A stretch of 64,000 bases of DNA. Origin: Streptomyces sp. NBC_01237 (lineage in GTDB: Bacteria > Actinomycetota > Actinomycetes > Streptomycetales > Streptomycetaceae). Made by a program: the position numbers and the translations under genes. Below the pieces are notes generated by a model. That model ran no database searches. It was not told where the DNA came from and worked only from the letters and a program-made list of their open reading frames with translations. The stretch's first letter is position 1. Each line of letters begins with the position of its first letter. Of this stretch, positions 4,134 to 23,969 are shown piece by piece. The stretch is taken from NCBI RefSeq assembly GCF_035917275.1, contig NZ_CP108509.1, positions 1,178,001 through 1,242,000 on the forward strand, read 5' to 3'.

Positions 4134-4160
4134 GATGGTCCTTTCGCAAACTGATTAGAA

Positions 4161-4189
4161 CGCCGTTCCACAACCACTTTGGAACGGCG
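4161..4189. promoter_or_regulatory. Palindromic TetR-type operator
   Basis: A perfect 10-bp inverted repeat (CGCCGTTCCA, 9-nt spacer, TGGAACGGCG) sits between the divergent monooxygenase and TetR genes. Its position over the shared promoter region suggests that the TetR protein represses both genes from here. Confidence 0.8.
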
Positions 4190-4214
4190 ATCCATCTATG
4201 TCAAAATCGTGCTC

Positions 4215-4886: not shown

Positions 4887-4991
4887 TCCGGTGGACGGTT
4901 CCCGGCCCCGGGGCCGGTGGGGTCCCACGCGTCGGAGGTGTCGGCACCCCGGTAGCCGGTGAGGTCCCGCAGCAGCCACCAGCAGAAGCCG

Positions 4992-5867
4992 TCATCCGTC
5001 GAAGCCCTGTGCGCCGACGGCGCCCCGCACGAATCGCCGCAGGTGCGCACGGACGGCGTCGGGCTGCTCCAACCAGGGTTCGTGTCCTGCGCCCTCGATC
5101 CGTGTCAGCGGTACAGCGAGACGGAGCGCGAGCGATTCGAGTGCCGCCAGAGGGCGGGGATCGCCGCGTCCACCGAGGAGCTCCGCCCGTGCGGGCAAAC
5201 ATGCGCGCAGCTCGGCCAGGCGCTCGTCGAGCGGGTCCGCGCGCCCTGCCCTGCCGAGTTCGGCGTTCATGGCCCAGTTGACCGGGCGACGCCGCCGGGC
5301 GCCCTGGGCTGCCCAGTGCCACCCGCGTTCGAGATCGGCGTGGTCGGCGAACCAGGCCAGCGTGAGCAGTTCGACTTCCTGCTCCTCCGTGCGGTGCGAC
5401 AACTCCTCCAGCTCACGGAGTCGCGCCTGCTGCACCACGGACATGCGACGGCCGCGCTCCGCCTGTTCCCCCGTACGCCAGTCACCGACGAAGGGTCCGC
5501 ACATCAGGAGCACTGCGGCAACCCGGTCCGAGTGCGCCAGGCAGAACCGGCTCGCCAGATCGGTGCCGTAGGAGTGCCCGATCAACACGGCCTCGGGCAC
5601 GTCCCATGCGTCGAGCAGCCCGGCGAGATCCTCGACATGCCGGGCAAGGGAATGAGGGCCCCGCCACGGGGACTGTCCCGTACCACGCTGGTCATACCGG
5701 TACACCGGGGCAAGGTCCGCGACCATGGGGGCGACATCGCCCAGATAGTCCGGCAGACCCGGACCGCCATGCAGCATGACCACAGCCGGCCTCCGGGTCG
5801 TATCCCCCGACGCCACCCAGCGCAACCGCGCCCCGTCGGTCATCGGCACAAGGCCCTGCGCCTCCAT
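4992..5867 (-). CDS. Alpha/beta hydrolase
   Basis: The 291-residue protein shows the alpha/beta-hydrolase fold signature: the oxyanion HGGPG at residues 33-37, YDQRGTGQS at about 58-66, the nucleophile elbow GHSYG with Ser at about residue 99 and a late catalytic His (EGAGHEPW). HGGPG with DQRG is typical of the proline iminopeptidase/S33-like branch, so an aminopeptidase or esterase role is plausible. The ATG at 5867 is preceded by a GAGGTGA ribosome binding site. It ends convergently with the TetR gene. About 100 bp separate it from the next minus-strand gene, so it may be a distal member of the siderophore-import operon or independent. Confidence 0.85.
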   Translation of the reverse strand: MEAQGLVPMTDGARLRWVASGDTTRRPAVVMLHGGPGLPDYLGDVAPMVADLAPVYRYDQRGTGQSPWRGPHSLARHVEDLAGLLDAWDVPEAVLIGHSYGTDLASRFCLAHSDRVAAVLLMCGPFVGDWRTGEQAERGRRMSVVQQARLRELEELSHRTEEQEVELLTLAWFADHADLERGWHWAAQGARRRRPVNWAMNAELGRAGRADPLDERLAELRACLPARAELLGGRGDPRPLAALESLALRLAVPLTRIEGAGHEPWLEQPDAVRAHLRRFVRGAVGAQGFDG

Positions 5868-5968
5868 CGAAGTCACCTCGGCAAACCTACCGGTCCTGCC
5901 GAGGGCCCGCCGAGAGCTGACGAACCCACCCGCCGCCGATGCCGGGTGGGGTGCCGGCCCCGAGGGGG

Positions 5969-7072
5969 CTACTCGTCGGCCGGCCGGGAAGAAGGCGCAC
6001 CGCTCCGCTGCGGGCGGCCGATGGTCACGGCACCGCTGAAGCCGGAGACAACCGACATCGTGTCCAGCGATCGATCGGCAACGGGCAGCAGATGGGCATC
6101 GACCCAGGTGTCCCCCGTTGCCGCGTTGGCCCACGGGTCATCGACGACCACGGCGCCGGGCACGACGCCGTGACAGAGCACCCAGTGCGGTACGTCGAAC
6201 CCTTGCATCCCGGCCAGCGAGACCAGGAGCAGCACATGCTCCCGTCGGCCGACCGCGGAGCGGATCGCGGCCGTGGAGAGACGGTGCGGGGCGATCGGTA
6301 CGCCGATCCGTCCGGCGTCCGTACGCGACATGCGCTGGAGGTGCGCACGCCACTCCTGCTCGCTCTGCGAAAGGTGGTCGAGCAGGACGGGCCGGTCCAC
6401 GTCGAGGTGGACCTCGACGGGGGACGACGGCCAGGCCCGGCGTACGGCAACGCCCAGTCCCACGGGCTCGCACGCGGGGAAGTTGGTCGCGTCGCGCCAC
6501 AGCGTCAGCTCCGCCCGGCGGTCGAACTCCTCCCGCGACAGCACCCCCGCATGCGCCTGGGCGACCAGGGCGGTGACGGCGCCGCACGTGAAGTGCGTGG
6601 TCTGCCCGTAGTACGGAGGCTCGGTCACCGTGCTGTCGTGCAGCCAGCGAACGTAACCGGCCGCGGGCCCCGCAACGTCCTCCGGTCGCGCGAGCGGAGG
6701 GCTCAGCGCGGCGAAACCGGCGGCAGCGGCGTCCTCGGGGCCGGCCGTCCATCCTTCCCACTTGACCTGCGCGAGCTCCCGGCCGCGTGCGTGGGCGACG
6801 ACGGCCGCGACGGCTGCCGGGATGTCACCGATGGCGTCGACGATCTTCAGATAGGCCGTGTGCGGGCGTGCCGTCACGAGCGCGGCAGCGGTCCAGTCCT
6901 CGCCGTCCTCACCCGGAACGGCCACGATGCGGGGGGCGTGGGCGGTGCGGTCGACGGCGTGCCAGCGCTCCAGCACCTCAGGGTGTCCGAGTCGTCTCAG
7001 CGGGGTCGGCGAGCTACCGGCCTCGAACGGGACGACGAGGGGATTCACGGGCGTTTTCTGCTGGGACGTCAT
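5969..7072 (-). CDS. C39-like cysteine peptidase homologue
   Basis: The 367-residue product has no signal peptide. Its second half looks like a peptidase C39-type papain-fold domain: QTTHFTCGA places a Cys at about residue 163 in the usual nucleophile context, and VPHWVLCHG followed by VVVDDPW supplies candidate His and Asp. The first 130 residues are not recognised. The ATG at 7072 has an AGGAG site upstream. It follows the siderophore ATPase, binding lipoprotein and permease on the same strand, with about 95 bp between it and the permease. One inference is intracellular amide or ester cleavage of an imported siderophore, but nothing in the sequence proves that. Confidence 0.65.
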   Translation of the reverse strand: MTSQQKTPVNPLVVPFEAGSSPTPLRRLGHPEVLERWHAVDRTAHAPRIVAVPGEDGEDWTAAALVTARPHTAYLKIVDAIGDIPAAVAAVVAHARGRELAQVKWEGWTAGPEDAAAAGFAALSPPLARPEDVAGPAAGYVRWLHDSTVTEPPYYGQTTHFTCGAVTALVAQAHAGVLSREEFDRRAELTLWRDATNFPACEPVGLGVAVRRAWPSSPVEVHLDVDRPVLLDHLSQSEQEWRAHLQRMSRTDAGRIGVPIAPHRLSTAAIRSAVGRREHVLLLVSLAGMQGFDVPHWVLCHGVVPGAVVVDDPWANAATGDTWVDAHLLPVADRSLDTMSVVSGFSGAVTIGRPQRSGAPSSRPADE

Positions 7073-7166
7073 TCCGGTACTCCTGGTGGATCTGAGAGGG
7101 AGGGGCGTGGCCCCGCGCCCGGGGGCCGGTGGCAGGCCGGTCGGCGCGGGACGCTGCCGCCCGGTG

Positions 7167-9269
7167 TCATGCGCGGGACTGCCGGAGCACCCAGATGAAG
7201 TACGGAGCACCGACCAGAGCGATCATGAGGCCCGCCGGCATCTGGGCGGGCGCGACGAGCGTGCGGCCGAGGGCGTCGGCCACGCACACCAGCAATCCGC
7301 CGAGCAGCATCGCGACCGGAATCGCGCGGCCGTGCCGGGCGCCCACCAATGACCGGGCGAGATGCGGGGCGACGAGACCCACGAAGCCGACGACGCCGAC
7401 GGCGATCACGCTGAGCGCGGCGAGCACCGCGGCGATCGCCAGCGCGGCGAAGCGGGTGCGTTCGACCCTGACGCCGACGATGCGCGGGGTGTCCTCGTCG
7501 ACGGCGAGCAGGTCGAGCCGGCCCCGCATGGCGAACAGCACGGGAAGCGCGAGCGCCAGGGCCACCGCGACCGGTACGACGTCGGGCAGCGTGCGGCCGT
7601 AGGTCGTGCCGGAGAGCCAGGTGAAGATCCGGGGCGTGTTGTACGGGTCGGCGCGCAGCAGGAGGAAGGTGGTGATGGAGCTGAGGCCGTACCCGCACCC
7701 GATGCCGATCAGTACGAACCGGTCGGGCAGGAAGCCGCCGCGCCAGGCCAGCAGGGCGATCAGCCCGAAGGTGGCGAGCCCCGCCGCGACCGCGACCGCG
7801 ATGAGCACGGGCCGACCGCCCGACAGGCCGGAGGTGACCACGCTCGCCGCGCCCAGCCCGGCGCCCGCCGTGATGCCGAGCACCCCCGGCTCCGCCAGCG
7901 GGTTGCGTACCGCGCCCTGCACGACACATCCGGCCAGTCCGAGCGCCGCGCCGGCGAGGACCGCGGCCGTCACCCGGGGCACCCGGTCGTCGAGCGCCTG
8001 GCCGATCAGGTCCGGGGCGGCGCCGCGGAACCACAGCGTGATGTCCCCCGTCCGCAGCCAGAGGCTGCCCGCCAGGACTGCCACCAGGACCGCCCCGGCC
8101 AGGAGTGTCACCACAGCGAACACGACGAGGAGGAACCCGCGGCGTGAGCGTGCGGCGACCCGTGAGGGCGGTGGCTGCCGGAGCCGGCCCGTGTCGCGCA
8201 GGCGCAGCGCGAGGACCACGATCACGACGGAGCCGAGCAGCGCGGTCGGCACGCCGGTGGGAATGGAGGCGGCCCCGTCCGCCCCCTGCACCGCGCGCAG
8301 GGACGCGTCCGCGAGCAGGATGAGCAGCGCGCCGAACAGCCCGGCCGCGGGCACCAGGAAGAGGTGCCGGCGCAACGCCCGGACGCGTCCCGCGATCAGG
8401 CGGGCCAGGACGGGGGCACCGAGGCCGACGAAGGAGATCGGGCCCGCGAGGGTCACCGCCGTACTGGTCAGAAGTACCGCGCAGATCACGGCTGTCACGC
8501 GGGTGGTCCGGACCGGCACACCGAGGGTGGACGCGGCGTCGTCACCCAGGTTCATCACGTCGAGCCGCCGGGACAGCACCAGGGCGACGCACAGCACCAC
8601 GGCCACGAGAGGGAAGGCGCGTGCCGCGGCGTCGATGTTCAGCTGTGCGAGCGAACCGCTCCCCCAGGCGAAGAGCCCGGTCGTGTTCTGGTTGAACAGG
8701 ATGAGGAGCATCCCGGTCGCCGCGTCCAGGGCCATGGCCGTCGCCGATCCGGCGAGGATGAGGCGGGTGCCCGCGGTGCCCGCCGCCCGGCCCGCGAGGA
8801 GCAGCACGAGCGCCGCCGCGACCAGGCCGCCGGTGAAGGCGACGGCCCCCGACGCCCACAGCGGAACGGCGAGGCCGAAGGCGGCGACGAGTGTGAGTGT
8901 GAGGTAGGCCCCGGCCGTGACCGCGAGGGTGTCGGGGGAGGCCAGGGCGTTGTGCGTGACGGACTGGAGCAGCGCACCGGCGGTGCCGAGGGCGAAGCCC
9001 ACCGCGACGCCCGCGAGCAGGCGCGGCAGGCGTGAGCCGGTGAGGATCTCACCGACCGGTGCGTCACCGGTGCTTTCCCGGTTCCCGGCGAGATGGCGCA
9101 CCAGGTCGCCGACGCCGACGCCGGACGTCCCCTGCGTCAGGTGCCACATGCCCACCAGCGCGGTCACGACGAGAAGGAGTGCCAGGACGGCCACGCCCTG
9201 GGGGCCGCCACCGCGCTCGGCGCGCGGCAGCGTTCCCCCTGCGGATTTCACTGTCTGCGGTGTGCTCAC
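7167..9269 (-). CDS. Siderophore ABC permease, fused FecCD-FecCD
   Basis: The 700-residue integral membrane protein consists of two FecCD-type halves (each about 330 residues with 9-10 hydrophobic segments) joined by an Arg-rich linker, as in FhuB. Both halves carry the family motifs near helix 3 (VTHNALASPDTLAV and VRNPLAEPGVLGI) and the GPISFVGL/GFVGLVAPH loop that contacts the ATPase. The start is a GTG at 9269 whose bases overlap the TGA of the binding-protein gene, so the two are translationally coupled. One fused chain makes the full transmembrane pore, imports an Fe(III)-siderophore and is powered by the ATPase at 10385. Confidence 0.9.
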   Translation of the reverse strand: MSTPQTVKSAGGTLPRAERGGGPQGVAVLALLLVVTALVGMWHLTQGTSGVGVGDLVRHLAGNRESTGDAPVGEILTGSRLPRLLAGVAVGFALGTAGALLQSVTHNALASPDTLAVTAGAYLTLTLVAAFGLAVPLWASGAVAFTGGLVAAALVLLLAGRAAGTAGTRLILAGSATAMALDAATGMLLILFNQNTTGLFAWGSGSLAQLNIDAAARAFPLVAVVLCVALVLSRRLDVMNLGDDAASTLGVPVRTTRVTAVICAVLLTSTAVTLAGPISFVGLGAPVLARLIAGRVRALRRHLFLVPAAGLFGALLILLADASLRAVQGADGAASIPTGVPTALLGSVVIVVLALRLRDTGRLRQPPPSRVAARSRRGFLLVVFAVVTLLAGAVLVAVLAGSLWLRTGDITLWFRGAAPDLIGQALDDRVPRVTAAVLAGAALGLAGCVVQGAVRNPLAEPGVLGITAGAGLGAASVVTSGLSGGRPVLIAVAVAAGLATFGLIALLAWRGGFLPDRFVLIGIGCGYGLSSITTFLLLRADPYNTPRIFTWLSGTTYGRTLPDVVPVAVALALALPVLFAMRGRLDLLAVDEDTPRIVGVRVERTRFAALAIAAVLAALSVIAVGVVGFVGLVAPHLARSLVGARHGRAIPVAMLLGGLLVCVADALGRTLVAPAQMPAGLMIALVGAPYFIWVLRQSRA

Positions 9270-11415: not shown

Positions 11416-12291
11416 TCAGGAGTTCTGGACACGCGATACGGGATTCCGGACATTCCCGTGACTGCCGTCGGCCGCGCCGAAGAACGCGCCCGGCGTGGTT
11501 CCCATGACCCGCCGGAAGGCCGCGATGAAGGAACTGGGCTGCGCGTAGCCGAGTGTCTCCGAAACCGTCATCACATCGAAGCCTTCGGAGAGGAGCGTCA
11601 GCGCCCGGTGCACACGCAGCATCTGCCGCCACCGCGCGAAGGAGAGACCCGTCGTGTGACGGAACGCACGGGTGACGGTGCGGTCGCTGATCCCCAGCGA
11701 CTGTGCCCACTCCTCCAGCGAGCGGCCGTCGGCGGGATCGTCCAGCAGCGCCTCGGCGATCATGTCGATCCGGTCGTCACCGGGCAGCTGCAGAGCGAAC
11801 TGGCGCTCCGACGGCTGGATCACATCGAACACGACCGACTCCGCCCGCGCCCTGGCCTCCGCGTCAAGATCCTCGCGGGACAGATGGGTCAGCAGCGACT
11901 CGAGCAGCGGCGTCATCGTGATCGCTTTCGGTTCCCCGAAAGCGAACGGCGTGCGGTCGGGAGCGAAGAAGGCGTCATGGAACTCCGCACCGGCCGTCGC
12001 TCTGCCCCCGTGCACCACTCCGGCGGGCATCCACAGACCGCACCCCTCGAACACGGTGAAGACGCGGTCCTCCACCCGGGACGTCAGCGTTCCCCCGCGT
12101 ACCCAGACGAGCTCGTGCAGGGCATGCGCATGCGGCGCCCACTCCGTGGGAACGCGGGGAACCCGGACCCCGGCGACGATGGCGAAAGGGGCTGCCTCCC
12201 CCTCCGGAAGCGCCGCCACCCGGCGCAGGGCGGTACCCGTCTCGCGCCGCCACATCCCGGGGGTCGCCTCACCACAGGACGATCGGACCAT
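11416..12291 (-). CDS. AraC family transcriptional regulator
   Basis: The protein (about 291 residues) has an N-terminal cupin-like sensing domain (HAHALHELVWVRGG, FEGCGLWMPAGVVHGG) and a C-terminal AraC double helix-turn-helix (SLEEWAQSLGISDRTVTRAF, then FDVMTVSETLGYAQPSSFIA). It lies immediately upstream of the siderophore-import operon on the same strand, as many AraC siderophore regulators do, so control of that operon is plausible. The start at 12291 is uncertain; an internal ATG at 12254 has a better ribosome binding site (GGTGAGG). Confidence 0.85.
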   Translation of the reverse strand: MVRSSCGEATPGMWRRETGTALRRVAALPEGEAAPFAIVAGVRVPRVPTEWAPHAHALHELVWVRGGTLTSRVEDRVFTVFEGCGLWMPAGVVHGGRATAGAEFHDAFFAPDRTPFAFGEPKAITMTPLLESLLTHLSREDLDAEARARAESVVFDVIQPSERQFALQLPGDDRIDMIAEALLDDPADGRSLEEWAQSLGISDRTVTRAFRHTTGLSFARWRQMLRVHRALTLLSEGFDVMTVSETLGYAQPSSFIAAFRRVMGTTPGAFFGAADGSHGNVRNPVSRVQNS

Positions 12292-12360
12292 GGGGCCGAG
12301 TCTATCCAGGGCCCCCGCACCGGCACCGGCGCCCCGGGCCGCGAGGGGCCGCCGGACGGG

Positions 12361-12446
12361 CTGGACGCCCCCTGGAGCAGGACCACGCTGCCCGAGCCCT
12401 GCCAGGGCCCAGGTAATCCCTGGACGCCCCCTGGAGCAGGACCACG
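12361..12446. repeat. 27-bp perfect direct repeat
   Basis: A 27-bp sequence at 12361-12387 is repeated exactly at 12420-12446. A short palindrome (GCCCTGCCAGGGC) sits between the copies. It lies between the AraC gene start and the end of the deoxynucleoside kinase gene. No function is evident. Confidence 0.8.
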
Positions 12447-12503
12447 GCCCGCCCGTCGGCTCCGTCCTGGATCTCCCTGTGGGGGCACCCGCGTGGAGCG
12501 GCT

Positions 12504-13166
12504 TCAGACCCGGGGCCCCGCCGCCGTCAGGGCGCCCTTGACCTCTCGCAGCACGCGGGCCGCGTCCTCGGGGTCGTTCACCACATCGGTGTGGTTCATG
12601 TCGACGACGAGCACGTCGCTGGCCGAGTAGTGCGTGTGCACCCAGTCGTCGTAGCCGGACCACAGCGTCCGGTAGTACTCGACGAGGCTCTCGTCCTGCT
12701 CGAAATCGCGGCCCCGCAGCCCGATGCGATGCAGCACCGTCTCGAAGTCCGCCTTGAGGTAGACCATGAGATCGGGTGCCTTGCGGTACGGCAGGCCGTC
12801 GATCTCGCGCATCATCTCGTCGAGCAGCCCCTCGTACACCCGCATCTCGAGGGAGCTGATCCGCCCCAGGTCGTGATTGACCTTGGCGAAGTACCAGTCC
12901 TCGTAGATGGACCGGTCGAGGACGCTGTCGTCCTGCTTGTACGCCTCCTTGATCGAGGCGAACCGTGTCTGCAGGAAGTACAGCTGGAGCAGGAAGGGGT
13001 AACGATTCGCCTGGATCTCCTCGGGGCTCGCCGTGTAGAAGAGCGGGAGGATCGGGTTGTCTTCCACGCTCTCGTAGAAGACTTCACTGCCCAGCTCCTT
13101 GGCGAGCAGCTCGGCCACGCTCGTCTTGCCGATCCCGATCATGCCTCCGACGCAGATCACCGGCAT
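12504..13166 (-). CDS. Deoxynucleoside kinase (dAK/dGK family)
   Basis: The 220-residue protein has the P-loop GGMIGIGKTS at residues 7-16 and a DRS motif (VLDRSIYED) that replaces the ERS of animal kinases, as in bacterial deoxyadenosine/deoxyguanosine kinases. It also has the LRGRDFEQ lid arginines. It phosphorylates salvaged deoxynucleosides in the cytoplasm using ATP. Length matches the family. It stands alone and is divergent from the gene at 13676. Confidence 0.9.
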   Translation of the reverse strand: MPVICVGGMIGIGKTSVAELLAKELGSEVFYESVEDNPILPLFYTASPEEIQANRYPFLLQLYFLQTRFASIKEAYKQDDSVLDRSIYEDWYFAKVNHDLGRISSLEMRVYEGLLDEMMREIDGLPYRKAPDLMVYLKADFETVLHRIGLRGRDFEQDESLVEYYRTLWSGYDDWVHTHYSASDVLVVDMNHTDVVNDPEDAARVLREVKGALTAAGPRV

Positions 13167-14597: not shown

Positions 14598-16010
14598 TCA
14601 GGCGCCCCAGCGCAGGGCGATGGTGTCACCCACGTTGATCACTCTGTTGCGGGCGGCGGCGGCGAAGGCGGAGCCGTCGACACCGGCCTTCCAGGTGTTG
14701 GAGCCGCTGTTGGCCTTGCCGTTGATGCCGGTGAGGGTGCCGGTGCCCGACGAGGGGGTCACGCTCGTGACGCATCCCGACGGGGTGGCCCCGCTGCCCG
14801 CGGCGTCGAGGACGTCACCGAGGGTGGTGGTGGTAGCGGTGGGTGTGAAGGCCACCGAGCAGACCTTCAGGTTTCCCGCGCCGTCGTCGACGGTGAGGGC
14901 CAACGTGGTGGCGGTGCCCGCGGTGAAGGCGGGCTGGGCGACCCACTGCGGGGCTCCAGGGGTGACCGGGACCGGAGGGGCAGTCGTGAAACCGCCGCCG
15001 ACGACGCCACGCAGAGCGTCGATGGAGGAGTAGGCGGAGGGGCCGGTGTCGGCCGGCTGGTACTTGAAGCCGCCCGCCGGGTTGTACTGGTTGGCGATCA
15101 GGAAGTCGACCGGGGTCTTGCCGCTCGACGTCAGGAAGTCTCCGGTCTGCGGGTTGATGCCGCAGGCGTTCAGGCCCGCGACGCCCCACCCGTTGGAGCT
15201 GGTGTTGACCCCGTACAGGGAGTTGAAGGCACCGGTGCCCGCGATCAGCTTGCCCTTGAGGAAGTTCTTCGCCCGCACCACGTCCGCGTCCGTGTTCGGC
15301 ACGCCGGAGACGCACAGGGCAGCCATCGCGGAGCCGGTCATGTCGACGTCGCCGGGAGCGTTCAGGGCAGTGGGGTCGCCCTCGGCCTTGCTGTAGGTCC
15401 AGCCGCCGTCGACGTGCTGGTTGGCGCGGATGCGCGTGACCATCGAGTCGGTGAGCGCCTGCGGGATACGGTTCGCGCCGCCCTGGGTCTTGGCACCACG
15501 CAGCGCGAGTGCCGCGAAGACGGTCCCGTTGAAGTTGGCGGACGGGCCGAAGTACCCGGCCTCGGCGGTCTGCCAGTGCGCGTAGACGTTCGCGACGAGG
15601 TTCCGCGAGGCCGACACCCGGGCGGGGTCGATACCGGCCGCGTACGCGTTCAGGGTGCCGCGCTCGTAGTCGGTGACCACCGGGGCGCCGGACGGCCAGC
15701 CCGCCGTGGACAGCAGGTTCCGGTAGACGGTCCGGGCGTTCTTCGTGGTGTCGCCGCCGGGGTAGACGTCGACGACCGCGGTGCCGGCGGCGGCGAACGT
15801 GCTGAAGGCCCATTCGTTGGACAGGCCGGAACCGGCGTACGAACCGTCGGCCGCCTGGAGCGACTTGAGGTAGGCGACACCGTTCGCCCTGGACGTGGCG
15901 ATCTGCGCGGGAGACGAGGTCGCGAAGGCGGGCAGCGCGGTGAGAGCGAACGCGCTCAGGGCTGCGGGCACCGCGAGCGCGAGGCGGCGGGAGATACGGG
16001 GACGGGACAT
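14598..16010 (-). CDS. Secreted intrinsic-factor/transcobalamin-like protein
   Basis: The 470-residue protein has a clear signal peptide (cleavage near residue 31). About 300 residues of alpha/alpha-barrel repeats of the prenyltransferase/terpene-cyclase type follow (ANGVAYLKSLQAADGSY, NQHVDGGWTYSK, SSIDALRGV). The C-terminal ~120-residue beta domain is of DUF4430 type: it starts after an AQPAFTAG linker, contains TTLGDVLDAAGSG and ends in INVGDTIALRW. Barrel followed by DUF4430 is the architecture of animal intrinsic factor and transcobalamin, which hold cobalamin between the two domains. A cobalamin riboswitch precedes the gene on its own strand, and a B12 ECF transporter is encoded divergently. 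I infer a secreted B12 (or corrinoid) scavenger. It has no cell-wall sorting signal, so it may diffuse and deliver B12 to the anchored proteins. Confidence 0.85.
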   Translation of the reverse strand: MSRPRISRRLALAVPAALSAFALTALPAFATSSPAQIATSRANGVAYLKSLQAADGSYAGSGLSNEWAFSTFAAAGTAVVDVYPGGDTTKNARTVYRNLLSTAGWPSGAPVVTDYERGTLNAYAAGIDPARVSASRNLVANVYAHWQTAEAGYFGPSANFNGTVFAALALRGAKTQGGANRIPQALTDSMVTRIRANQHVDGGWTYSKAEGDPTALNAPGDVDMTGSAMAALCVSGVPNTDADVVRAKNFLKGKLIAGTGAFNSLYGVNTSSNGWGVAGLNACGINPQTGDFLTSSGKTPVDFLIANQYNPAGGFKYQPADTGPSAYSSIDALRGVVGGGFTTAPPVPVTPGAPQWVAQPAFTAGTATTLALTVDDGAGNLKVCSVAFTPTATTTTLGDVLDAAGSGATPSGCVTSVTPSSGTGTLTGINGKANSGSNTWKAGVDGSAFAAAARNRVINVGDTIALRWGA

Positions 16011-16141
16011 GTCCTGCTCCTGGAATCGGCGGACCCCGGCTGCTCCCGCGCAGGCCGCACGTCACCGCCGTAGGGGCACGGCAGAGCCTGGTCGGAGGGC
16101 CGTGGTCCGGAACGCGTGGTACGGCTTCCTGTACTGCATCG

Positions 16142-16262
16142 CCGTCTGGGCATTCGGGCTCGGAAACGGCCCCCGCCGTCCCACACCGCTGCGCGTCAGC
16201 TCCGGCATCTCACCGGATTCCCCCAAGTGGCAGCCCAGGACGCTACCCGAGTGGTCGAGGGA
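16142..16262 (-). promoter_or_regulatory. Cobalamin riboswitch (minus strand)
   Basis: Read on the minus strand, the leader of the gene starting at 16010 contains the B12-element landmarks in order: GCCACTT, GGGGGAATCCGGTGAGA, CTGACGCGCAGCGGT, a variable stem-loop and GAGCCCGAATGCCC. These correspond to the conserved core of the AdoCbl riboswitch. It should lower expression of the secreted intrinsic-factor-like protein when B12 is present. The ends are approximate. Confidence 0.85.
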
Positions 16263-16344
16263 CCGCCAGCCATCCGGACCGGAACGCGGACCGCACGCAT
16301 CCGGGGCCGGTCCGCCGGGTCCTGTGCCACCTTGACGCGTCCAT

Positions 16345-16475
16345 GGAATCCGTGTTGCACTCCGGCTGATAACTGCTCAACTCCAGGGGAAGCCGGTCGA
16401 ATTCCGGCGCTGACCCGCAACCGTAGGCCCGGGCTCGTCCCGGGTGAGCCGGAATGCCTGGGGCTGGGCCACAGT
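16345..16475 (+). promoter_or_regulatory. Cobalamin riboswitch (plus strand)
   Basis: The leader contains the B12-box series GGGGAAGCCGGTCGAATTC, GCTGACCCGCAACCGTA, a strong GC stem-loop and GAGCCGGAATGCCTG, a very good match to the cobalamin riboswitch core. A TTGACG -35-like element lies at 16332-16337. It controls the five-gene operon that starts at 16592. Expression should be off at high cobalamin, probably by masking the ribosome binding site because no terminator hairpin is obvious. Confidence 0.93.
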
Positions 16476-16591
16476 ACGAAGAGCGCCGTCGCGGATTGCG
16501 GTGTGGTCGTCGAAGCCTCCCCATGGCGAAGGAAGCCGTGCGGGGGCACATCGCCACGCACGCAGCCGCCCGGCAGAGACGAGGGGCCGCG

Positions 16592-19372
16592 GTGGGGACC
16601 GAACAGCAGGCGAAACGGCAGTCGGGGACGGGACGACGCCTCCTCTCGCTCATGACCGCGTCCTTCCTGACGCTCGGTGCGAGCGTGGCGCTCTTCACAG
16701 TCCCCGACTCCGCCGGCGCCGAACCGATCGAGCGGTGCACGGCCACCAGCGGCGCCATCGTGGCCGTGGACTTCGGCCCCTTCGGCGGCAAGGTCGAGCG
16801 CGGCTGCGACACGACCCCGACGACCGGCTACGAACTGCTGCACACGGGCGGCTTCACGACCGAGGGCACCGTCCACGACGGCCCCGCCTTCATCTGCCGC
16901 ATAGGCAAGGACTCCGGTACGCAGTACCCCACTCCGGAGAAGGAGGCCTGCGTCCTCACCCCGCAGGCCACCGCGTACTGGTCGTACTGGATCGCCTCCC
17001 CCGGCCAGAAGAACTGGACCTACAGCCCGCTCGGCGCCATGGCGCGCACCCCGAAACCCGGCGACGTGGACGCCTGGGTCTTCGGCGGCACCGACATCGG
17101 CGGCACCAAGGGCAAGCCGGACTTCTCCCCCGACGACGTCCGGGCCGCAGGCGGCTCCACCCCCGACCCGACGGTGCCGACCGACCCGCCCGACGTGCCC
17201 GCGGGAGCGGTCGACGTTTTGGCCGCCACCCGTTGGATCACCGGACAGCTGACGGACGGGAAGCGCGTCGTCGACGAAGGGTCCACCACCCCGAACCACT
17301 TCCTCACCACCGAGGCCGTGTTCGCCCTGGCGTCCACCGACGCCAAGAGCCGGGCCGCCCGCGAGATCGCCGACTTCCTGGCCACGCCCGCGCAGACGGA
17401 CGCGTACGCCTACCCCGCGGGCAAGGACGGAATACCCGACGCCGGCGCCGCCGCCCGCCTCGCGCTGGTCGCCGAGGCCACCGGCAAGGACCCCCGTGCC
17501 TTCGGCGGGCACGACCTCCTCGGTGACCTCCTCACCTACGTCTGTCCGCGCGACATCGGCGACGGCGAGACGATCGACGGCTGCCTCACCAAGGGCGACT
17601 TCCGCACGACGGGACAGTCCGACGCACAGGCCATGGCCGTCATCGCCCTGCTGAACGGCGGGGTGACTCCCCCCGCCGGCGCCGTGAACCGACTGACCGG
17701 GCTCCAGTGCGAGGACGGCGGCTTCACCTCCATCCTGATCCGTTCCGGCGGGTGGTGCGACAGCGACGCGAACTCCACCGGTCTGATCGCCCTGGCCCTC
17801 AAGCGGGCCGGCGGTCACGACGCCGCCGTACAGAAGGCCCGCGGCTACCTCAAGAAGTCCCAGCTGAAGTCCGGGGCCTGGCCCTCCGCCTCCTACCTGA
17901 CCACCGGCAGCCCGGCCTCCACCGCCTGGGCGGCGCAGGCCCTGCGCGCCCTCGGTGACGCCGCCTTCGCGGACGCCGGCGTCTCCTGGCTCTCCAGGCA
18001 CCAGTTCCCCGGAGGCGGCTTCGGCTTCGAGGAGGACGACACCGAATCGCGGCTCTTCGCCACCACCCCGGTCACCGTCGCCGGCGCCAGGAGCGACCTC
18101 GTCACACTCACCACCAGGAAGACCGACCCTCCCACCATGCCTCCGGCGGGTGACGGGCCCGACCTGAAGAAGGGCGTGACGTACCTCACCCACCCCAGCC
18201 GGCTGATCCAGGGCCGCTACTACGAGGCCGGCGCGGGCACCGGCCACGCCGACTACGGCATGACCATCGACGGCGCCTACTCCCTCGCCGCCACCGGGAC
18301 GGACAACGCCACCCTGCGCAACATCGTCGACTTCTTCGACAAGGGCGGCAAGGACGGCAGGGGCCGGGGCATCCACGACTGGACGCTCATCGGCACCAAG
18401 TACGCGAGCGGCGGCTCCCTCGGCAAGGCGGCCCTCCTCGCGGAGGCCGTGGGCCGCGACCCCCGCGACTTCGGCGGCCGGGACCTGATCGCCGCACTCG
18501 CCAAGGGCACCTGCGCCGCCAGGACCTCGACCCGCCAGGAGTGCGCGGCGAAGGGCAACTACACCTACGCGACTTCCGTGTTCTCCCAGTCCCTCGGCGT
18601 CATCGCGCAGCTGCGGGCGGGTGAGAAGGCCGCCGCGGCCGAACCGGTCGCCTACCTCAAGAGCCTCCAGACCCCCTCGGGTGCCTGGGTCAGCCTGATC
18701 GGCGAGCCGAGCGGTGCCGAGGTCGACTCGACCGCCATGGCCGCCATGGCCATCGACCTGTTGCCCGACGCCGCCTCCCAGGCCGCCGCGGACAGGGCCG
18801 TCGCCTGGCTCGCCACCCAGCAGAAGGAGGACGGCGGGTTCCCGGGCGCCTCCGGCAACTCCGTCAACTCCGCGGCCCTCGCCATCCAGGGACTCTCCCT
18901 GGACGCGCCCAAGTACAGCGCGCAGATCGCCAGGGCCCGCAAGTTCCTGGCGAGCCAGCAGAACCGCGACGGCGGCTTCAACATCGCCAAGGGCGGCCAA
19001 CCGGGCTCCGATGTCCGCGCCTCCGCCCAGGCGGTCGGCGGCGCCACCGGCATCTCCTTCGGCCTGCTGACCCGCGACCTCGACGGCACCACCCCTGAGC
19101 CCGTCCCCGGCACGTCCGGCGGGACGAACGGCGGGACCGCCGGTTCCTCCTCCGGCGGCGACGGCTCGCCCGTCATCGTGACCCCGGGCGAGGACGCGGG
19201 AGGCACGGGCTCCTCCGGGGGCGGCGCCTCCGGCTCGGGCGGCGGGAGCCTCGCCTCCACCGGTGCGCGGGTCGGCGGCCTCGCCGCCGCAGCCCTGGTC
19301 CTGGCCCTCGGCGGCTGGGGCCTCACCCGCGCCGCCGGGCGCCGCCGTGAGAACACCGGGAGCGAGGCATGA
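16592..19372 (+). CDS. Cell-wall-anchored B12-acquisition protein (beta domain, two barrels, LAxTG)
   Basis: The protein (about 926 residues) has a signal peptide and then a DUF4430-like beta domain (about residues 45-185; TTGYELLHTGG, FICRIG, YWSYW, GDVDAWVFGG). Two tandem alpha/alpha-barrel domains of prenyltransferase-type repeats follow (LQCEDGGF, QQKEDGGFPG, SQQNRDGGFN). A Gly/Ser-rich linker leads to LASTG, a hydrophobic helix and a basic tail, which is the class E sortase signal (LAxTG) used by Streptomyces. The start is taken as the GTG at 16592 with a GAGGGG site; an ATG at 16523 is possible. It is the first gene after the plus-strand cobalamin riboswitch and overlaps the next gene by ATGA. 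I infer a surface receptor that binds corrinoids and feeds the ECF transporter. Confidence 0.85.
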   Translation: MGTEQQAKRQSGTGRRLLSLMTASFLTLGASVALFTVPDSAGAEPIERCTATSGAIVAVDFGPFGGKVERGCDTTPTTGYELLHTGGFTTEGTVHDGPAFICRIGKDSGTQYPTPEKEACVLTPQATAYWSYWIASPGQKNWTYSPLGAMARTPKPGDVDAWVFGGTDIGGTKGKPDFSPDDVRAAGGSTPDPTVPTDPPDVPAGAVDVLAATRWITGQLTDGKRVVDEGSTTPNHFLTTEAVFALASTDAKSRAAREIADFLATPAQTDAYAYPAGKDGIPDAGAAARLALVAEATGKDPRAFGGHDLLGDLLTYVCPRDIGDGETIDGCLTKGDFRTTGQSDAQAMAVIALLNGGVTPPAGAVNRLTGLQCEDGGFTSILIRSGGWCDSDANSTGLIALALKRAGGHDAAVQKARGYLKKSQLKSGAWPSASYLTTGSPASTAWAAQALRALGDAAFADAGVSWLSRHQFPGGGFGFEEDDTESRLFATTPVTVAGARSDLVTLTTRKTDPPTMPPAGDGPDLKKGVTYLTHPSRLIQGRYYEAGAGTGHADYGMTIDGAYSLAATGTDNATLRNIVDFFDKGGKDGRGRGIHDWTLIGTKYASGGSLGKAALLAEAVGRDPRDFGGRDLIAALAKGTCAARTSTRQECAAKGNYTYATSVFSQSLGVIAQLRAGEKAAAAEPVAYLKSLQTPSGAWVSLIGEPSGAEVDSTAMAAMAIDLLPDAASQAAADRAVAWLATQQKEDGGFPGASGNSVNSAALAIQGLSLDAPKYSAQIARARKFLASQQNRDGGFNIAKGGQPGSDVRASAQAVGGATGISFGLLTRDLDGTTPEPVPGTSGGTNGGTAGSSSGGDGSPVIVTPGEDAGGTGSSGGGASGSGGGSLASTGARVGGLAAAALVLALGGWGLTRAAGRRRENTGSEA

Positions 19373-20292
19373 GCAGCAACCGACTCCTGCGGGCCCCGGC
19401 CCGTACGGTCGCCGCCCTCGGGCTGACGGTGGTGGCCTTCGCCGCCACCGCGGCCCCGGCGGCCGCGGCCCCGCAGCCGATGGGCAGGTGCACCACCTCC
19501 TCCGGGGTGGTGCTGGCCGTGGACTTCAGCCACTGGGGCGGTCCCGTCTACCGCTCCTGCGGGACGGCCCCCACCACCGGCTACGAGCTCCTCAACCAGG
19601 GCGGCTGGGCCACCACCGGCACCGGCCACGACGGCCCCGCCTTCATCTGCCGCATCGGATACAGCGGCCACAAGGGCGGCAAGCAGTATCCGACGCCCCA
19701 GCAGGACGACTGCGTGCTGACCCCGCCGGCCTCCGCGTACTGGTCGTACTGGCACGCGGACCCGGGCCGCAACACCTGGGAGTACAGCCGGCTCGGCGCG
19801 ATGCTCTACAAGCCGAACCCGGGCAGCGTCGATCTGTGGATCTTCGGCGGCACCGATATCGAGGGCACCGAGGGCAGGCCCACCATCACCCCCGACCAGC
19901 TGCGCGCCAAGAACACCAGGCCGACCGGTGGAGCTGCCCCCAAGGACACGCGTACGGCGGCGCCCCTGCCGCGCGACGTCAACACCGGCCCCGAGCCGGA
20001 GAATCCGCCGCCGGCCGACCCGAGCCCTCCCTCGACGACACCGCCGCCCGGCCCCACCGCGTCGGAGAGCCCCTCACCTTCGGCAAGCCCCTCCGGGAGC
20101 GTCTCGCCGTCACCGTCGTCCAGCGCCCCGGCGGTGGTCACCCCCGGCCCACAGGTCGTTGACGCGGCTCCCGCCGCGGACGCCGAACACGACGTGGGCT
20201 CGTACCTGCCCGCCGTCGCCACCGGGGCCCTGGTGCTCCTCATCGGCGCCGCCGCCGTACGCGCGGCCAAGCGCCGTCGTCGTACGGAGTAG
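19369..20292 (+). CDS. Membrane-anchored DUF4430-like protein of the B12 operon
   Basis: The 307-residue protein has a signal peptide, one beta domain clearly homologous to the N-terminal domain of the preceding protein (TTGYELLNQGG, FICRIG, YWSYW, VDLWIFGGTDIEG), a long Pro/Ser/Thr-rich spacer and a C-terminal membrane helix with a basic tail. It has no LAxTG or LPxTG, so it should stay in the membrane rather than be linked to the wall. Translation is coupled to the upstream gene (ATGA overlap). It may act as the membrane-side partner that passes B12 from the wall protein to the ECF S component; that step is inference. Confidence 0.82.
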   Translation: MSSNRLLRAPARTVAALGLTVVAFAATAAPAAAAPQPMGRCTTSSGVVLAVDFSHWGGPVYRSCGTAPTTGYELLNQGGWATTGTGHDGPAFICRIGYSGHKGGKQYPTPQQDDCVLTPPASAYWSYWHADPGRNTWEYSRLGAMLYKPNPGSVDLWIFGGTDIEGTEGRPTITPDQLRAKNTRPTGGAAPKDTRTAAPLPRDVNTGPEPENPPPADPSPPSTTPPPGPTASESPSPSASPSGSVSPSPSSSAPAVVTPGPQVVDAAPAADAEHDVGSYLPAVATGALVLLIGAAAVRAAKRRRRTE

Positions 20293-20296
20293 CCGC

Positions 20297-21481
20297 GTGT
20301 CACGCACCACCACGGCCGCGGCCGAGCCGCCGGTGTCCGGCCTCGCACCGGACGCGGGCGGCCGTCGTCCGCCCCGCACCCTGCACCCCGTCGCCTGGTG
20401 GATCTGGGCCCTGGCCCTGGCCACGGCGGTCAGCCGCACCAACAACCCGCTGCTGCTGTTCCTCGTCCTGGCCGTCCTCGGGTACGTCGTCACCATGCGC
20501 CGCACCGAGGCCCCCTGGGCCCGGGGCTTCACGTACTACCTCTACCTGGCACTGACCGTGGTGGCGGTCCGGGTGGTGTTCCGCGCGATCTTCGCCACCG
20601 GGATCACCCCTCGCGACCACTTCCTCTTCTCGCTCCCCCACATCCCCACCCCCGACTGGTACGCCGGCATTCGGCTCGGCGGCCCCGTCTCGCTGGAGGC
20701 GCTGCTCTCCGCGGCCACGGACGGGCTGCGACTGGCCTGCATGCTGTGCTGCATCGGCGCGGCCAACACCCTCGCCAACCCCAAGCGAGCCCTGCGCGTG
20801 CTGCCCGGCGCCCTCTACGAACTCGGCGTCGCCGTCACCGTCTCCATCAGCGTCGCCCCGCAGCTCGTCCAGAGCGTCCAGCGCGTGCACCGGGCCAAGC
20901 GGCTGCGGGCCGGGCCCTCCAAGGGGCTCCGCGCGCTGCGGGGCATCATCGTGCCCGTCCTCGAAGACGCCCTGGAACGCTCCCTGCGGCTCGCCGCGGC
21001 CATGGACTCGCGCGGCTACGGCCGGGCCGGTACCGCCACCCGCCGCTCCCGGCGTGCCACCGGTGCCCTCATGCTGCTCGGCATGTGCGGGCTGTGCGCC
21101 GGCGCCTACGGCCTTCTCGACGCCACCGCCCCCAAGCTGCTCGGCCTGCCCGCCATGGGCGCGGGCGCACTCCTGTGCTTCGCCGGCCTGCGCCTCGGCG
21201 GCCGCCGCGTCACCCGGACCACGTACCGCCCCGACCCCTGGCACTTCGCGGAGTGGGGCGTCGCCGCCTGCGGCGTCCTCTCCGCCGTCCTGCTGTTCAC
21301 GAACGCCGGCTTCGACGCCGCCGAGCTCAACCCCTCCATCTACCCGCTCAGCTGGCCCACCCTGCCGCTCGTACCCGCCGCCGCGATCCTGCTCGCGGGC
21401 ACGGCCGGGTTCCTGGCCCCGCCCCCGACCGCCCCCGCCCGGCCGGCCGTCCCCGCTCAGCGCACCGAGGAACCCAGATGA
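20297..21481 (+). CDS. ECF transporter T component (CbiQ/EcfT-like)
   Basis: The 394-residue membrane protein has several N- and C-terminal hydrophobic segments and the cytoplasmic coupling motif AMDSRGYG, diagnostic of EcfT proteins (A-x-x-x-R-G). It links substrate capture by the S component to ATP hydrolysis by the fused ATPase encoded next. The start is a GTG at 20297, 4 bp after the previous stop. The stop overlaps the ATPase start (ATGA). The N-terminal Ala/Pro-rich segment is cytoplasmic and longer than in most CbiQ proteins. Confidence 0.88.
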   Translation: MSRTTTAAAEPPVSGLAPDAGGRRPPRTLHPVAWWIWALALATAVSRTNNPLLLFLVLAVLGYVVTMRRTEAPWARGFTYYLYLALTVVAVRVVFRAIFATGITPRDHFLFSLPHIPTPDWYAGIRLGGPVSLEALLSAATDGLRLACMLCCIGAANTLANPKRALRVLPGALYELGVAVTVSISVAPQLVQSVQRVHRAKRLRAGPSKGLRALRGIIVPVLEDALERSLRLAAAMDSRGYGRAGTATRRSRRATGALMLLGMCGLCAGAYGLLDATAPKLLGLPAMGAGALLCFAGLRLGGRRVTRTTYRPDPWHFAEWGVAACGVLSAVLLFTNAGFDAAELNPSIYPLSWPTLPLVPAAAILLAGTAGFLAPPPTAPARPAVPAQRTEEPR

Positions 21482-23133
21482 TCACCTTCGATCAGGTCGC
21501 CGTCCAGTACGACGACACGGCCGAGCCCGTACTGCGCGACGTGAACCTCACGGTGGAGGAAGGCGAACTCTGCCTGGTCGTCGGGCACACCGGTGTCGGC
21601 AAGTCCACCCTCCTCGGCGCCGTCAACGGCCTCGTCCCGCACTTCACCGGCGGCACCCTCTTCGGCCGGGTCCTGGTCGACGGCAGGAACACCGCGGACC
21701 ACCCTCCCCGTGAACTCGCCGATGTGGTGGGGGTCGTGGGACAGGACCCCCTGGACGGTTTCGTCACCGACACCGTCGAGGAAGAACTCGCCTACGCGAT
21801 GGAGCAGTTGGCGGTTGTGCCCGCCACCATGCGCAAACGTGTGGAGGAGACCCTCGACCTGCTCGGCCTCGCCGACCTGCGCCACCGCGCGCTGCACGAG
21901 CTCTCCGGCGGCCAGCAGCAGCGCGTCGCGATCGGCTCCGTCCTCACCGCCCACCCCCGCGTACTCGTCCTGGACGAGCCCACGTCCGCCCTGGACCCGA
22001 CGGCCGCGGAGGAGGTACTGGCGGCCGTCACCCGGCTCGTCCACGACCTCGGTGTCACGGTGCTCCTCGCCGAACACCGCCTGGAGCGCGTGGTCCAGTA
22101 CGCCGACCGCGTCATCCATCTCCCGGGCGACGGCCTCGTCGTGTCGGGCGCGCCCGCCGAGATCTTCCGTACGTCCTCCATCGCCCCGCCGATCGTGGAA
22201 CTCGGCCGCGCCGCGGGCTGGTCCCCGCTCCCCCTGTCGATCCGCGACGCCCGCCGGGCGGCGGCTCCACTGCGCACCCGGCTGGCCGGCACCGTTCCCC
22301 CACCGGTGAGGCCCGCCCCGGCCCAGGACCGTCCCGAACTCCTCGCCGCGCGCGGCATCACCGTCACCTACCACGGGGTGCCGGCCGTACGCGAGGTCGA
22401 CCTGACCCTGCACGGCTGCGAGGTCACCGCCCTCATGGGCCGCAACGGCTCCGGCAAGTCCTCCCTGCTGTGGGCGCTCCAGGGGTCGGGGCCCCGCAGG
22501 GCGGGCTCCGTGGCCGTCGCGGCGCCCGGTGCGCCGAAGCCGCAGGATCCCCGGAAGCTCTCCGCGGCGGCGGCCCGCCGGCTCGTCGGACTCGTCCCCC
22601 AGACCCCGACCGACCTCCTCTACCTGGAGTCCGTCAAGCAGGAGCTCGACCAGGCCGACGCCGAGTCGGGGGTCGCCGGGGACGGCATCCGGGCCCGCGC
22701 CGTCCTGGACCGGCTGGCGCCGGGCATCCCCGACACCACCCACCCCCGTGACCTGTCCGAGGGCCAGAAGCTCGCCCTGGTCCTCGCGATCCAGCTGACC
22801 GCCGCCCCCCGCGTACTGCTCCTCGACGAGCCCACCCGCGGCCTCGACTACCGCGCCAAGAGCGAACTGATCCGCATCGTCGACGAGCTGGCCGCGGAGG
22901 GCCGCGCCGTCGTGATCTCCACGCACGACGTGGAGTTCGTCGCGCGGGCCGCCGACCGCGTCGTGGTCATGGCCGAAGGTGACGTGGTCGCCGACGGCCC
23001 CACCACCGAAGTCATCGTCGCTTCCCCCGTCTTCGCCCCCCAGACGGCCAAGATCCTCGCCCCGCTCCCGTACCTCACGGTCGCCCAGTCCGCCGCCCGC
23101 ATGCCCGCCGACGAGACGGACCCGGACTCATGA
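21478..23133 (+). CDS. ECF transporter fused double ATPase
   Basis: The 551-residue protein contains two ABC ATPase domains in one chain. Domain 1 has Walker A GHTGVGKS (residues 36-43), signature LSGGQQQR and LVLDEPTSALD. Domain 2 has GRNGSGKS, the less common signature LSEGQKL and LLLDEPTRGLD. It corresponds to the EcfA/EcfA' pair fused, as in other actinobacterial ECF systems. It powers cobalamin import with the T and S proteins encoded on either side, and both junctions are ATGA overlaps. Confidence 0.92.
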   Translation: MITFDQVAVQYDDTAEPVLRDVNLTVEEGELCLVVGHTGVGKSTLLGAVNGLVPHFTGGTLFGRVLVDGRNTADHPPRELADVVGVVGQDPLDGFVTDTVEEELAYAMEQLAVVPATMRKRVEETLDLLGLADLRHRALHELSGGQQQRVAIGSVLTAHPRVLVLDEPTSALDPTAAEEVLAAVTRLVHDLGVTVLLAEHRLERVVQYADRVIHLPGDGLVVSGAPAEIFRTSSIAPPIVELGRAAGWSPLPLSIRDARRAAAPLRTRLAGTVPPPVRPAPAQDRPELLAARGITVTYHGVPAVREVDLTLHGCEVTALMGRNGSGKSSLLWALQGSGPRRAGSVAVAAPGAPKPQDPRKLSAAAARRLVGLVPQTPTDLLYLESVKQELDQADAESGVAGDGIRARAVLDRLAPGIPDTTHPRDLSEGQKLALVLAIQLTAAPRVLLLDEPTRGLDYRAKSELIRIVDELAAEGRAVVISTHDVEFVARAADRVVVMAEGDVVADGPTTEVIVASPVFAPQTAKILAPLPYLTVAQSAARMPADETDPDS

Positions 23134-23969
23134 CCGCACGCGCCGCCGCCATCCGGATCCACGCGCGGGCCGGGACCGTCATCGCCATGGCCGCCTTCCT
23201 CGGCATCGTCGCGTTCTTCTGGCCCTTCCTCGTCGCCCCCGGCACGTTCGGCTCGAACTACGCACCACCGCTGATCTTCGGCGTTCTGCTCGTCATCGTG
23301 CTCTGCGTGGTCATCTCCGAGATCGCCGAGGGCGGCATCAACTCCAAGGCCCTGGCCATGCTGGGGGTACTGTCCGCGGTCAACGCCGCCATCCGCCCCC
23401 TCGGCGCGGGCACGGCCGGCATCGAGACGGTGTTCTTCATCCTGGTCCTGGCCGGACGGGTGTTCGGCCCCGGCTTCGGCTTCACCCTCGGCTGCACGTC
23501 CCTCTTCGCCTCCGCCCTGATCACGGGCGGGGTCGGGCCCTGGATGCCGTACCAGATGTTCGGCTGTGCCTTCGTGGGTATGCTCGCCGGCTTCCTCCCC
23601 AAGGCCACCGGCCGGTGCGAGGTCGCTCTGCTCGCCGTCTACGGCTCCGTGTCCGGCTACCTCTTCGGCTTCCTCCTCAACCTCTCCTTCTGGCCGTTCT
23701 CCCTCGACCCCAACAGCTCCATCGCCTATCTCCCCGGCCTCCCCTTCACCGAGCAGTTCCAGCGCTACCTCGCCTTCGACCTCGCCACCTCCCTCGGCTG
23801 GGACACCGGACGCGCCGTCACCAACTTCGTCTGCGTCTGTCTGGCGGGACCGGCCGTGCTCACGGTCTTCCGCCGCGCGGCCCGCAAGGCCCGCTTCCAG
23901 GCCCCGATCCGCTTCGCACCCCGCACGCCCCCGGCCGAGCACGGGCCCCCGAAGCGGCCCGCGCCCTGA
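23130..23969 (+). CDS. ECF transporter S component, probably cobalamin-specific
   Basis: The 279-residue protein has about six membrane segments and the EcfS-type features AMLGVLSAVNAAIRPLG, FGFTLGCTSLFASALITGG and GPWMPYQMFGCAFVGMLAG, which fit the CbrT-like branch. It is the substrate-binding subunit. Specificity for cobalamin is inferred from the riboswitch controlling the operon rather than from the protein itself. It is the last gene of the operon; convergent minus-strand ABC genes follow. Confidence 0.87.
   Translation: MTARAAAIRIHARAGTVIAMAAFLGIVAFFWPFLVAPGTFGSNYAPPLIFGVLLVIVLCVVISEIAEGGINSKALAMLGVLSAVNAAIRPLGAGTAGIETVFFILVLAGRVFGPGFGFTLGCTSLFASALITGGVGPWMPYQMFGCAFVGMLAGFLPKATGRCEVALLAVYGSVSGYLFGFLLNLSFWPFSLDPNSSIAYLPGLPFTEQFQRYLAFDLATSLGWDTGRAVTNFVCVCLAGPAVLTVFRRAARKARFQAPIRFAPRTPPAEHGPPKRPAP

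Follow-up and report, generated by a model that had tools for sequence, protein, structure and literature searches.

The window analysed here is a 64,000-nucleotide stretch of the Streptomyces sp. NBC_01237 genome (contig NZ_CP108509.1, positions 1,178,001 to 1,242,000; genome of 10.19 Mb in four contigs), and it carries a six-gene locus that we read as a probable capture and import system for vitamin B12. The genes encode three exported proteins (termed P1, P2 and P3) and an energy-coupling factor (ECF) transporter, which comprises EcfT, a fused ATPase EcfAA' and the S component EcfS. P1 lies on the minus strand, divergent from P2, P3, EcfT, EcfAA' and EcfS on the plus strand (Table 1). From P2 to EcfS, neighbouring genes abut or overlap by a few bases, as rechecked from frames and coordinates, and these five genes look like one operon. 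Where close homologues of P1 and P2 carry a species name, they come from Streptomyces.

Table 1. Genes, domains and riboswitches of the locus (window coordinates)
Feature	Positions	Strand	Evidence
P1, 470 aa, secreted barrel-β protein without anchor	14598..16010	-	Frame, N-terminus, Pfam
P1 α/α barrel, residues 28-345 (boundaries approximate)	14976..15929	-	Weak PF13243/PF13249; hhalign to P2 barrel 1
P1 C-terminal β domain, DUF4430-like, residues 345-470 (approximate)	14601..14978	-	PF14478; hhalign
Cobalamin riboswitch facing P1	16148..16223	-	RF00174 35.3 bits
Cobalamin riboswitch facing P2 and the ECF operon	16387..16458	+	RF00174 28.2 bits; alignment and consensus fold
P2, β-barrel-barrel wall protein, LASTG sorting signal; GTG start inferred	16592..19372	+	
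P2 β domain, residues 45-190 (approximate), P3-type family	16724..17161	+	Identity to P3; profile A6
P2 barrel 1, residues 205-505 (approximate)	17204..18106	+	hhalign to barrel 2
P2 barrel 2, residues 520-830 (approximate)	18149..19081	+	PF13243, PF00432; hhalign
P2 LASTG motif, hydrophobic helix and basic tail	19250..19369	+	LAxTG in family rows
P3, exported β-domain protein, C-terminal membrane helix	19369..20292	+	
P3 β domain, residues 44-163 (approximate); halves swapped in SCO2322-family proteins	19498..19857	+	
EcfT, CbiQ-type	20297..21481	+	PF02361 43.5 bits
Fused EcfA-EcfA' ATPase	21478..23133	+	ABC_tran in two stretches
ECF S component	23130..23969	+	PF12822 28.7 bits, cut-off 30.7

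P2 consists of a β domain, two α/α barrels (toroids) and a C-terminal anchor. The toroid region matches PF13243 with 51 bits, above the cut-off, and the two barrels align with each other at an hhalign E-value of 2.8e-29, indicating two related toroids. Among 71 rows of the P2 family (the window member and rows chosen among the matches listed), the LAxTG motif is present in 69, the C-terminal helix in 66 and a hydrophobic N-terminus in 67; P2 itself has the LASTG motif, hydrophobic helix and basic tail of a sortase class E substrate. In P3 the C-terminus is a hydrophobic helix, the LAxTG motif is absent, and the β domain is 55-56% identical to that of P2, which places both in one family (hereafter the P3-type domain). 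In P1, the barrel is followed by a β domain; all 73 rows of its family (the window member and rows chosen among 120 matches listed) have a hydrophobic N-terminus, and none has an LAxTG motif or a C-terminal hydrophobic helix. The frames and anchor signals thus confirm the anatomy described in an earlier note on this DNA, with a free barrel-β protein (P1), a wall-bound β-barrel-barrel protein (P2) and a membrane-bound β-only protein (P3).

The barrel of P1 matches PF13243/PF13249 at 17-18 bits, below the cut-off, and is more divergent; hhalign aligned it to P2 barrel 1 with an E-value of 6.3e-6 (with no shuffled control for comparison) and to barrel 2 with 4e-4. In the window member, PF14478 (DUF4430) matches residues 426-469 with 12.6 bits (E 0.19, cut-off 23.8). 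The same model matches 51 of the 73 rows at E≤1, with a best E-value of 5.9e-4, and gives 18.5 and 17.5 bits in the P1 homologues of two further genomes (G350 and G348, respectively). Comparison of the P1 β domain with a Streptomyces DUF4430 profile (built from 120 proteins listed for one query) gave an hhalign E-value of 1.2e-5, compared to 0.12 for the best of five column-shuffled controls. Altogether, the P1 β domain appears weakly but consistently DUF4430-like. P1 has 605 homologues at E≤1e-3 among 8000 candidates scored; a single-sequence search matched 9 of 147 genomes of the order, with few candidates scored per genome so that distant members were possibly missed, and from this count P1 is apparently an accessory part.

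Several side observations concern P1-like and DUF4430 genes elsewhere. In one locus (L068 of G348; 6263-6433, 6825-8423), a strong cobalamin riboswitch of 85.6 bits points at the 3' end of a P1 homologue; the P2 matches of that genome are divided between two distant places, which gives the impression of a rearranged or decaying locus. Another Streptomyces locus (L067 of G350, 3805-7882) has three more genes beside its P1/P2/P3/ECF set: an additional barrel gene, an additional P3-type β gene and one for a DUF4430 protein that passes the Pfam cut-off with 31.1 bits. Stand-alone DUF4430 proteins of ~165 residues that bear export signals also occur in Streptomyces (L072, 7682-8224; L073, near 7572-8390; L074, 6889-7386), the last of which has 358 relatives at E≤1e-3. 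No above-cut-off riboswitch was found in the 15 kb around each of these three genes.

The importer genes were assigned by family models. EcfT belongs to the CbiQ family, and the ATPase contains two ATP-binding cassette (ABC) domains; these are firm Pfam matches. The ATPase scores below the equivalog cut-offs of TIGR04520 and TIGR04521, and passes the cbiO model TIGR01166 (231.4 against 211.8 bits). By sequence, EcfT, EcfAA' and EcfS form an ECF importer, in which the assignment of EcfS is tentative, with a score just under its family cut-off.

Each of the two transcription units is preceded by a match to the cobalamin riboswitch family RF00174, for which the gathering cut-off is 31.5 bits and which the P1-facing element passes. 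The pair recurs in all nine P1 loci, window included, that were found in the 147 sampled genomes of the order, with scores of 31.8-41.0 bits towards P1 and 26.9-31.5 bits towards P2; in all nine the two matches are divergent and separated by 561-608 bp. Three further loci were compared: both elements are over the cut-off in L067 (31.6 bits towards P2), and L068 and L069 reach it towards P1 only. An alignment of ten P2-facing leaders is close and yields a common consensus fold; as both sides vary in only 3 of 32 pairs, no covariation argument can be made for this element. The earlier note had placed all three exported proteins in riboswitch-controlled units with an ECF importer. A riboswitch match does precede each unit; P1, though, is a unit of its own, divergent from the ECF operon. 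Elsewhere in the genome, the frames behind six other riboswitches correspond to CobN, CbiB, MetE, class I NrdA, methylmalonate-semialdehyde dehydrogenase and an ABC binding protein. Both the CobN frame and the MetE frame run off the end of their loci, and they score below their cut-offs; the best family of the binding protein is a putative F420-0 binder, below cut-off, with a weaker match to BtuF.

To survey the actinobacteria, a profile of 11 P3-type domains was searched against 296 genomes and matched 49 of them (36 of 198 genera), 44 near full length; in the other five (G006, G008, G012, G014 and G207) the match covers only the C half, as expected of permuted copies. RF00174 was then searched, with stricter filters, in 42 non-Streptomyces genomes with near full-length matches (G207 and six genomes of the window's genus were left out), all chosen by the protein profile and not by riboswitches, and some of them incomplete. 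A same-strand match (E≤0.01) lies within 4 kb upstream in 37 of the 42 genomes and for 43 of 50 P3-type domains, compared to ~0.05 expected by chance; it reaches 31.5 bits or more in 23 genomes. In 25 of the 42, the riboswitch linked to the P3-type gene is the only RF00174 match, hence this gene set may be a main corrinoid route there, with the incompleteness of some genomes in mind. Among 30 fetched loci, an EcfT gene lies within 1.5 kb in 27 and a barrel gene in 24; excluding eight loci that had supplied genes to the models, these become 20/22 and 17/22. The barrel, β, EcfT, EcfA and EcfS genes are, on this gene content, a conserved actinobacterial core. P1 and the β-barrel-barrel fusion of P2, searched with single sequences, look like a Streptomyces elaboration.

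The same genome carries a second, chromosomal ECF locus (L070, G000:C1:2522000-2538000) with an SCO2321-family barrel, an SCO2322-family protein (at ~6309-7172) and an ECF set. Its barrel is a true SCO2321 member, with 558.6 bits on NF053823, compared to 150 bits for P2, below the equivalog cut-off of 300. The ECF proteins of the two loci are 47-56% identical (S components, 47%), and the second locus has an upstream RF00174 match of 30 bits, below the cut-off. For the SCO2322 family as a whole, 20 of 25 above-cut-off loci were tested, and a cobalamin-clan match (E≤0.02) was found upstream in 14, always on the strand of the gene; control stretches 20 kb away gave 0 of 20 (as some contigs were too short, 16 of the 20 control genomes are shared with the test set), with ~0.02 matches expected from riboswitch counts. 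Together with the 37 of 42 genomes for the P3-type domain, these 14 of 20 loci extend the support for a B12-linked role beyond what the earlier note could show.

P3 itself reaches only 22.3 bits on the SCO2322-family model NF040672 (model positions 8-57 only, cut-off 85), as expected from the swapped order of the domain halves. The C half of the P3-type domain aligns to the N half of SCO2322 with an hhalign E-value of 9.6e-13, and the N half to the C half with 4.4e-5; the unswapped comparisons gave 0.29 and 0.51, that is, nothing, and twelve shuffled controls gave 0.032 or worse. Moreover, when the SCO2322 profile is duplicated in tandem, its alignment with the P3-type one runs through the junction and spans 100 columns, compared to 37 for a single copy. 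By these profile comparisons, the SCO2322 family, which belongs to the locus that is common in Streptomyces, is a circular permutant of the P3-type domain. A tree was built from 31 EcfT proteins, 23 of which come from loci with the permuted form; a single branch (support 96/92) sets these 23 apart, compared to 7.3 changes on average with shuffled labels; the tree is midpoint-rooted, contains some long branches, and leaves out two of the 25 permuted loci (L038, L055) and three of the 11 others (L126, L128, L129), which have no usable EcfT. Since a single branch separates these EcfT proteins, the tree is consistent with a single origin of the permuted form; the ancestral order of the β-domain halves is one that we infer. 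As an aside, a 961-residue open frame in one genome (G408:C1:2363575-2364297) has two tandem P3-type domains, and in G419 and G304 a long frame with such a domain lies upstream of another; these are possibly another multi-domain receptor.

From the above, we propose that the locus is a corrinoid capture and import system that its riboswitches switch on when B12 is scarce, with a probability of about 0.8. Low B12 would derepress both units through the cobalamin riboswitches. The toroid and β domains of P1 and P2 would then bind corrinoid at the cell surface, with P1 possibly as a free scavenger handing over to P2; P3 would present the corrinoid to EcfS, and the ATPase would drive import. The order from soluble to wall to membrane is suggested by the anchors alone. 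Overall, the B12-linked role in capture and import is well supported, and the system is probably a widespread, little-studied form of B12 uptake in actinobacteria.

A number of observations weigh against this proposal. The P2-facing element of the window, at 28.2 bits (E 3.6e-5), is under the gathering cut-off, and at that cut-off only 3 of 8 distant loci have a riboswitch. Five of the 42 surveyed genomes lack an upstream match (three have no RF00174 match at all, and two have it on another contig), and 6 of 20 SCO2322-family loci lack a cobalamin-clan match. One of the three distant loci with a riboswitch, L130, lies in a Streptomyces genome outside the 42 (G010); there a full-length P3-type match is accompanied by a single cut-off riboswitch, on the opposite strand. 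PF14478 matches just 4 of 41 relatives at E≤0.1, and leaves the window's own genome unmatched. The S component scores below the PF12822 cut-off and, in a sequence comparison with PDB chains, matches none at E≤10. Finally, the genome carries some cobalamin biosynthesis genes (CobN, CbiB) in addition to the riboswitch-linked ABC binding protein, and therefore the host may not strictly need this uptake; the locus may be a salvage route in a host with some B12 synthesis genes.

The substrate and the role of the barrels could also be read differently. Cobalt ECF transporters, too, are often under cobalamin riboswitches, and the importer might carry cobalt or a B12 precursor instead of intact B12. 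A CbiQ-type EcfT and an ATPase that passes the cbiO model would suit such a role; however, EcfS matches only PF12822, and weakly, with no CbiM-type model, Co2+ would hardly need large exported toroid proteins, and some P2 homologues match the eukaryotic cobalamin-binding protein family PF01122, albeit weakly. We consider this alternative improbable. More remote still is an enzymatic role for P1 and P2, which would then be secreted proteins akin to terpene cyclases or prenyltransferases, with an incidental link to riboswitches. Their best Pfam matches are indeed SQHop_cyclase and Prenyltrans, and database names point the same way: as the earlier note anticipated, automatic names suggest cyclases or oxidases, with "prenyltransferase/squalene oxidase repeat" given to most of the named P2 homologues among 120 listed, and "hypothetical protein" to most P1 homologues among the matches listed, some of which are called terpene cyclase/mutase. 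Yet the DxDD motif, which we take to be the catalytic motif of squalene and terpene cyclases, occurs in none of the 73 rows of P1 and in no more than 3 of the 71 of P2, and throughout the phylum the core is repeatedly linked to riboswitches and ECF genes. Because the motif is lacking and export signals are present, we rejected the cyclase reading, which we hold to be extremely improbable.

A closer question, within B12 uptake, is how far the likeness to the animal proteins extends. The earlier note held that the three exported proteins combine the same two building blocks in three arrangements, as in intrinsic factor and transcobalamin. The likeness is supported for P1, in which a barrel precedes a DUF4430-like β domain, and weakly for the barrels of P2, where matches to PF01122 at E≤10 were found in 13 homologues out of 50 (the best at 2.3e-4), with 12.9 bits against a cut-off of 25 on one of them (P0188). 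In the same scan PF01122 was not found for the window's own P2, and the match appears unspecific, since Pec_lyase was found in 15 of the 50 and generic toroid families in all 50. It finds no such support in the β domain of P2 and P3, in which no Pfam match to DUF4430 was detected and for which hmmsearch scores against DUF4430 were no better than those of shuffled sequences. hhalign placed the two families at E 0.034-0.035, with shuffled controls at 0.11 or worse (six controls at 0.35 or worse for the comparison at 0.034). At the sequence level, the P2/P3 β domain is a family separate from DUF4430, with no significant link between them. Searches of PDB sequences with P1, P2, P3, the P3-type profile and a Streptomyces DUF4430 protein, by single sequence and profile, listed no transcobalamin or intrinsic factor among their matches, and the P3-type profile matched no PDB sequence.

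The sequence comparisons with DUF4430 favour a version of the B12 system in which the P2/P3 fold is unrelated to DUF4430, only P1 is transcobalamin-like, and the three arrangements reflect convergence. Set against this version are conserved features in similar order, a similar size (judged by eye), the occurrence in the same operons, and the hhalign score, which is weak and yet better than all six controls. Moreover, one locus (L127) has a DUF4430 protein and a P3-type protein in one operon: a single riboswitch of 69.2 bits is followed by a DUF4430 protein (24.4 bits, Pfam cut-off 23.8), an SCO2321-type barrel, a P3-type β domain and ECF genes. A two-sequence BLAST match between the β protein of this locus and P1 (E 0.002) was rejected, as the alignment is partly out of register. 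We give the convergent version somewhat less than an even chance. Doubtful, in our estimate, is the fuller extracellular relay, comparable to the chain of haptocorrin, intrinsic factor and receptor in animals, in which a freely secreted B12 binder (P1), a double-barrel receptor at the wall (P2) and a shuttle at the membrane (P3) would lead to the ECF importer, and the β domain would have been permuted once to give the SCO2322 family, with its place in the operon kept.

Beside the locus, an AraC-type regulator (11416-12663, minus strand) adjoins a deoxynucleoside kinase (12504-13166, minus strand), with no evident link to B12.

Few Gram-positive B12 importers have been characterised, to our knowledge. 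The present analysis offers a testable function for two NCBIfam families of unknown role, in addition to many proteins whose database names read squalene oxidase repeat, terpene cyclase or simply hypothetical. Should P1 bind B12, Streptomyces would be secreting a protein scavenger of the vitamin, which would be relevant to competition for B12 in soil. The circular permutant also provides a natural experiment on the workings of the β domain.

Like the animal intrinsic factor, transcobalamin and haptocorrin, P1 is a secreted protein with a barrel followed by a DUF4430-like β domain; unlike for those proteins, PF01122 is not among the eight Pfam families found for the 73 P1 rows at E≤1, and the DUF4430 score of the window member is under the cut-off. 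The SCO2321/SCO2322 families (NF053823, NF040672) resemble the present locus in the barrel and β protein that precede EcfT-EcfA-EcfS in the second locus of this genome and, in 14 of 20 loci, in upstream cobalamin riboswitches; they differ in that P2 fuses a β domain to two barrels and the halves of the P3 domain are in the opposite order. The B12-capturing lipoproteins of Bacteroides belong to a Gram-negative system with other folds. Those gut surface lipoproteins (PMC6143338) exemplify a comparable principle, with B12 captured at the surface ahead of an importer. ECF-CbrT, the B12 transporter of Lactobacillus delbrueckii, resembles the window's importer in its ECF architecture and proposed substrate, as far as the excerpts go (PMC5997447), and differs from it in that here the ATPases are fused, exported capture proteins are present and EcfS has no PDB sequence match. 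In the open-licence literature, represented largely by titles and the beginnings of abstracts, there was no account of this actinobacterial system, and the parts consulted of PMC5997447, PMC3766115, PMC2667541, PMC4350170 and PMC10924467 contain nothing on this locus.

The closest precedent is the transcobalamin-type SLBB clade defined by Burroughs et al. (2007; PMC1796856), which, in the available portions of that paper, includes toroid fusions, surface anchors, paralogous pairs and CbiO/CbiQ operons, and for which B12 scavenging was proposed. According to the same portions, the clade occurs in low-GC Gram-positives, planctomycetes and, less often, euryarchaea, and its bacterial hosts usually lack key enzymes of B12 synthesis. 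Shared by that clade and the locus described here are an exported α/α toroid with a β-grasp-type domain, in some cases a second paralogous protein at the surface, and predicted CbiO/CbiQ operons. In the portions available of their fold survey (Burroughs et al. 2007; PMC1949818), a circular permutation is given for the E1 UFD domain and no transcobalamin-type permutant appears. Beyond the SLBB account, as represented by those portions (PMC1796856), the present analysis adds the occurrence in actinobacteria, the control by riboswitches, and a P3-type family together with its circular permutation. Altogether, the system is known in broad principle, and what is new is its actinobacterial form, the separate β-domain family and the permutation.

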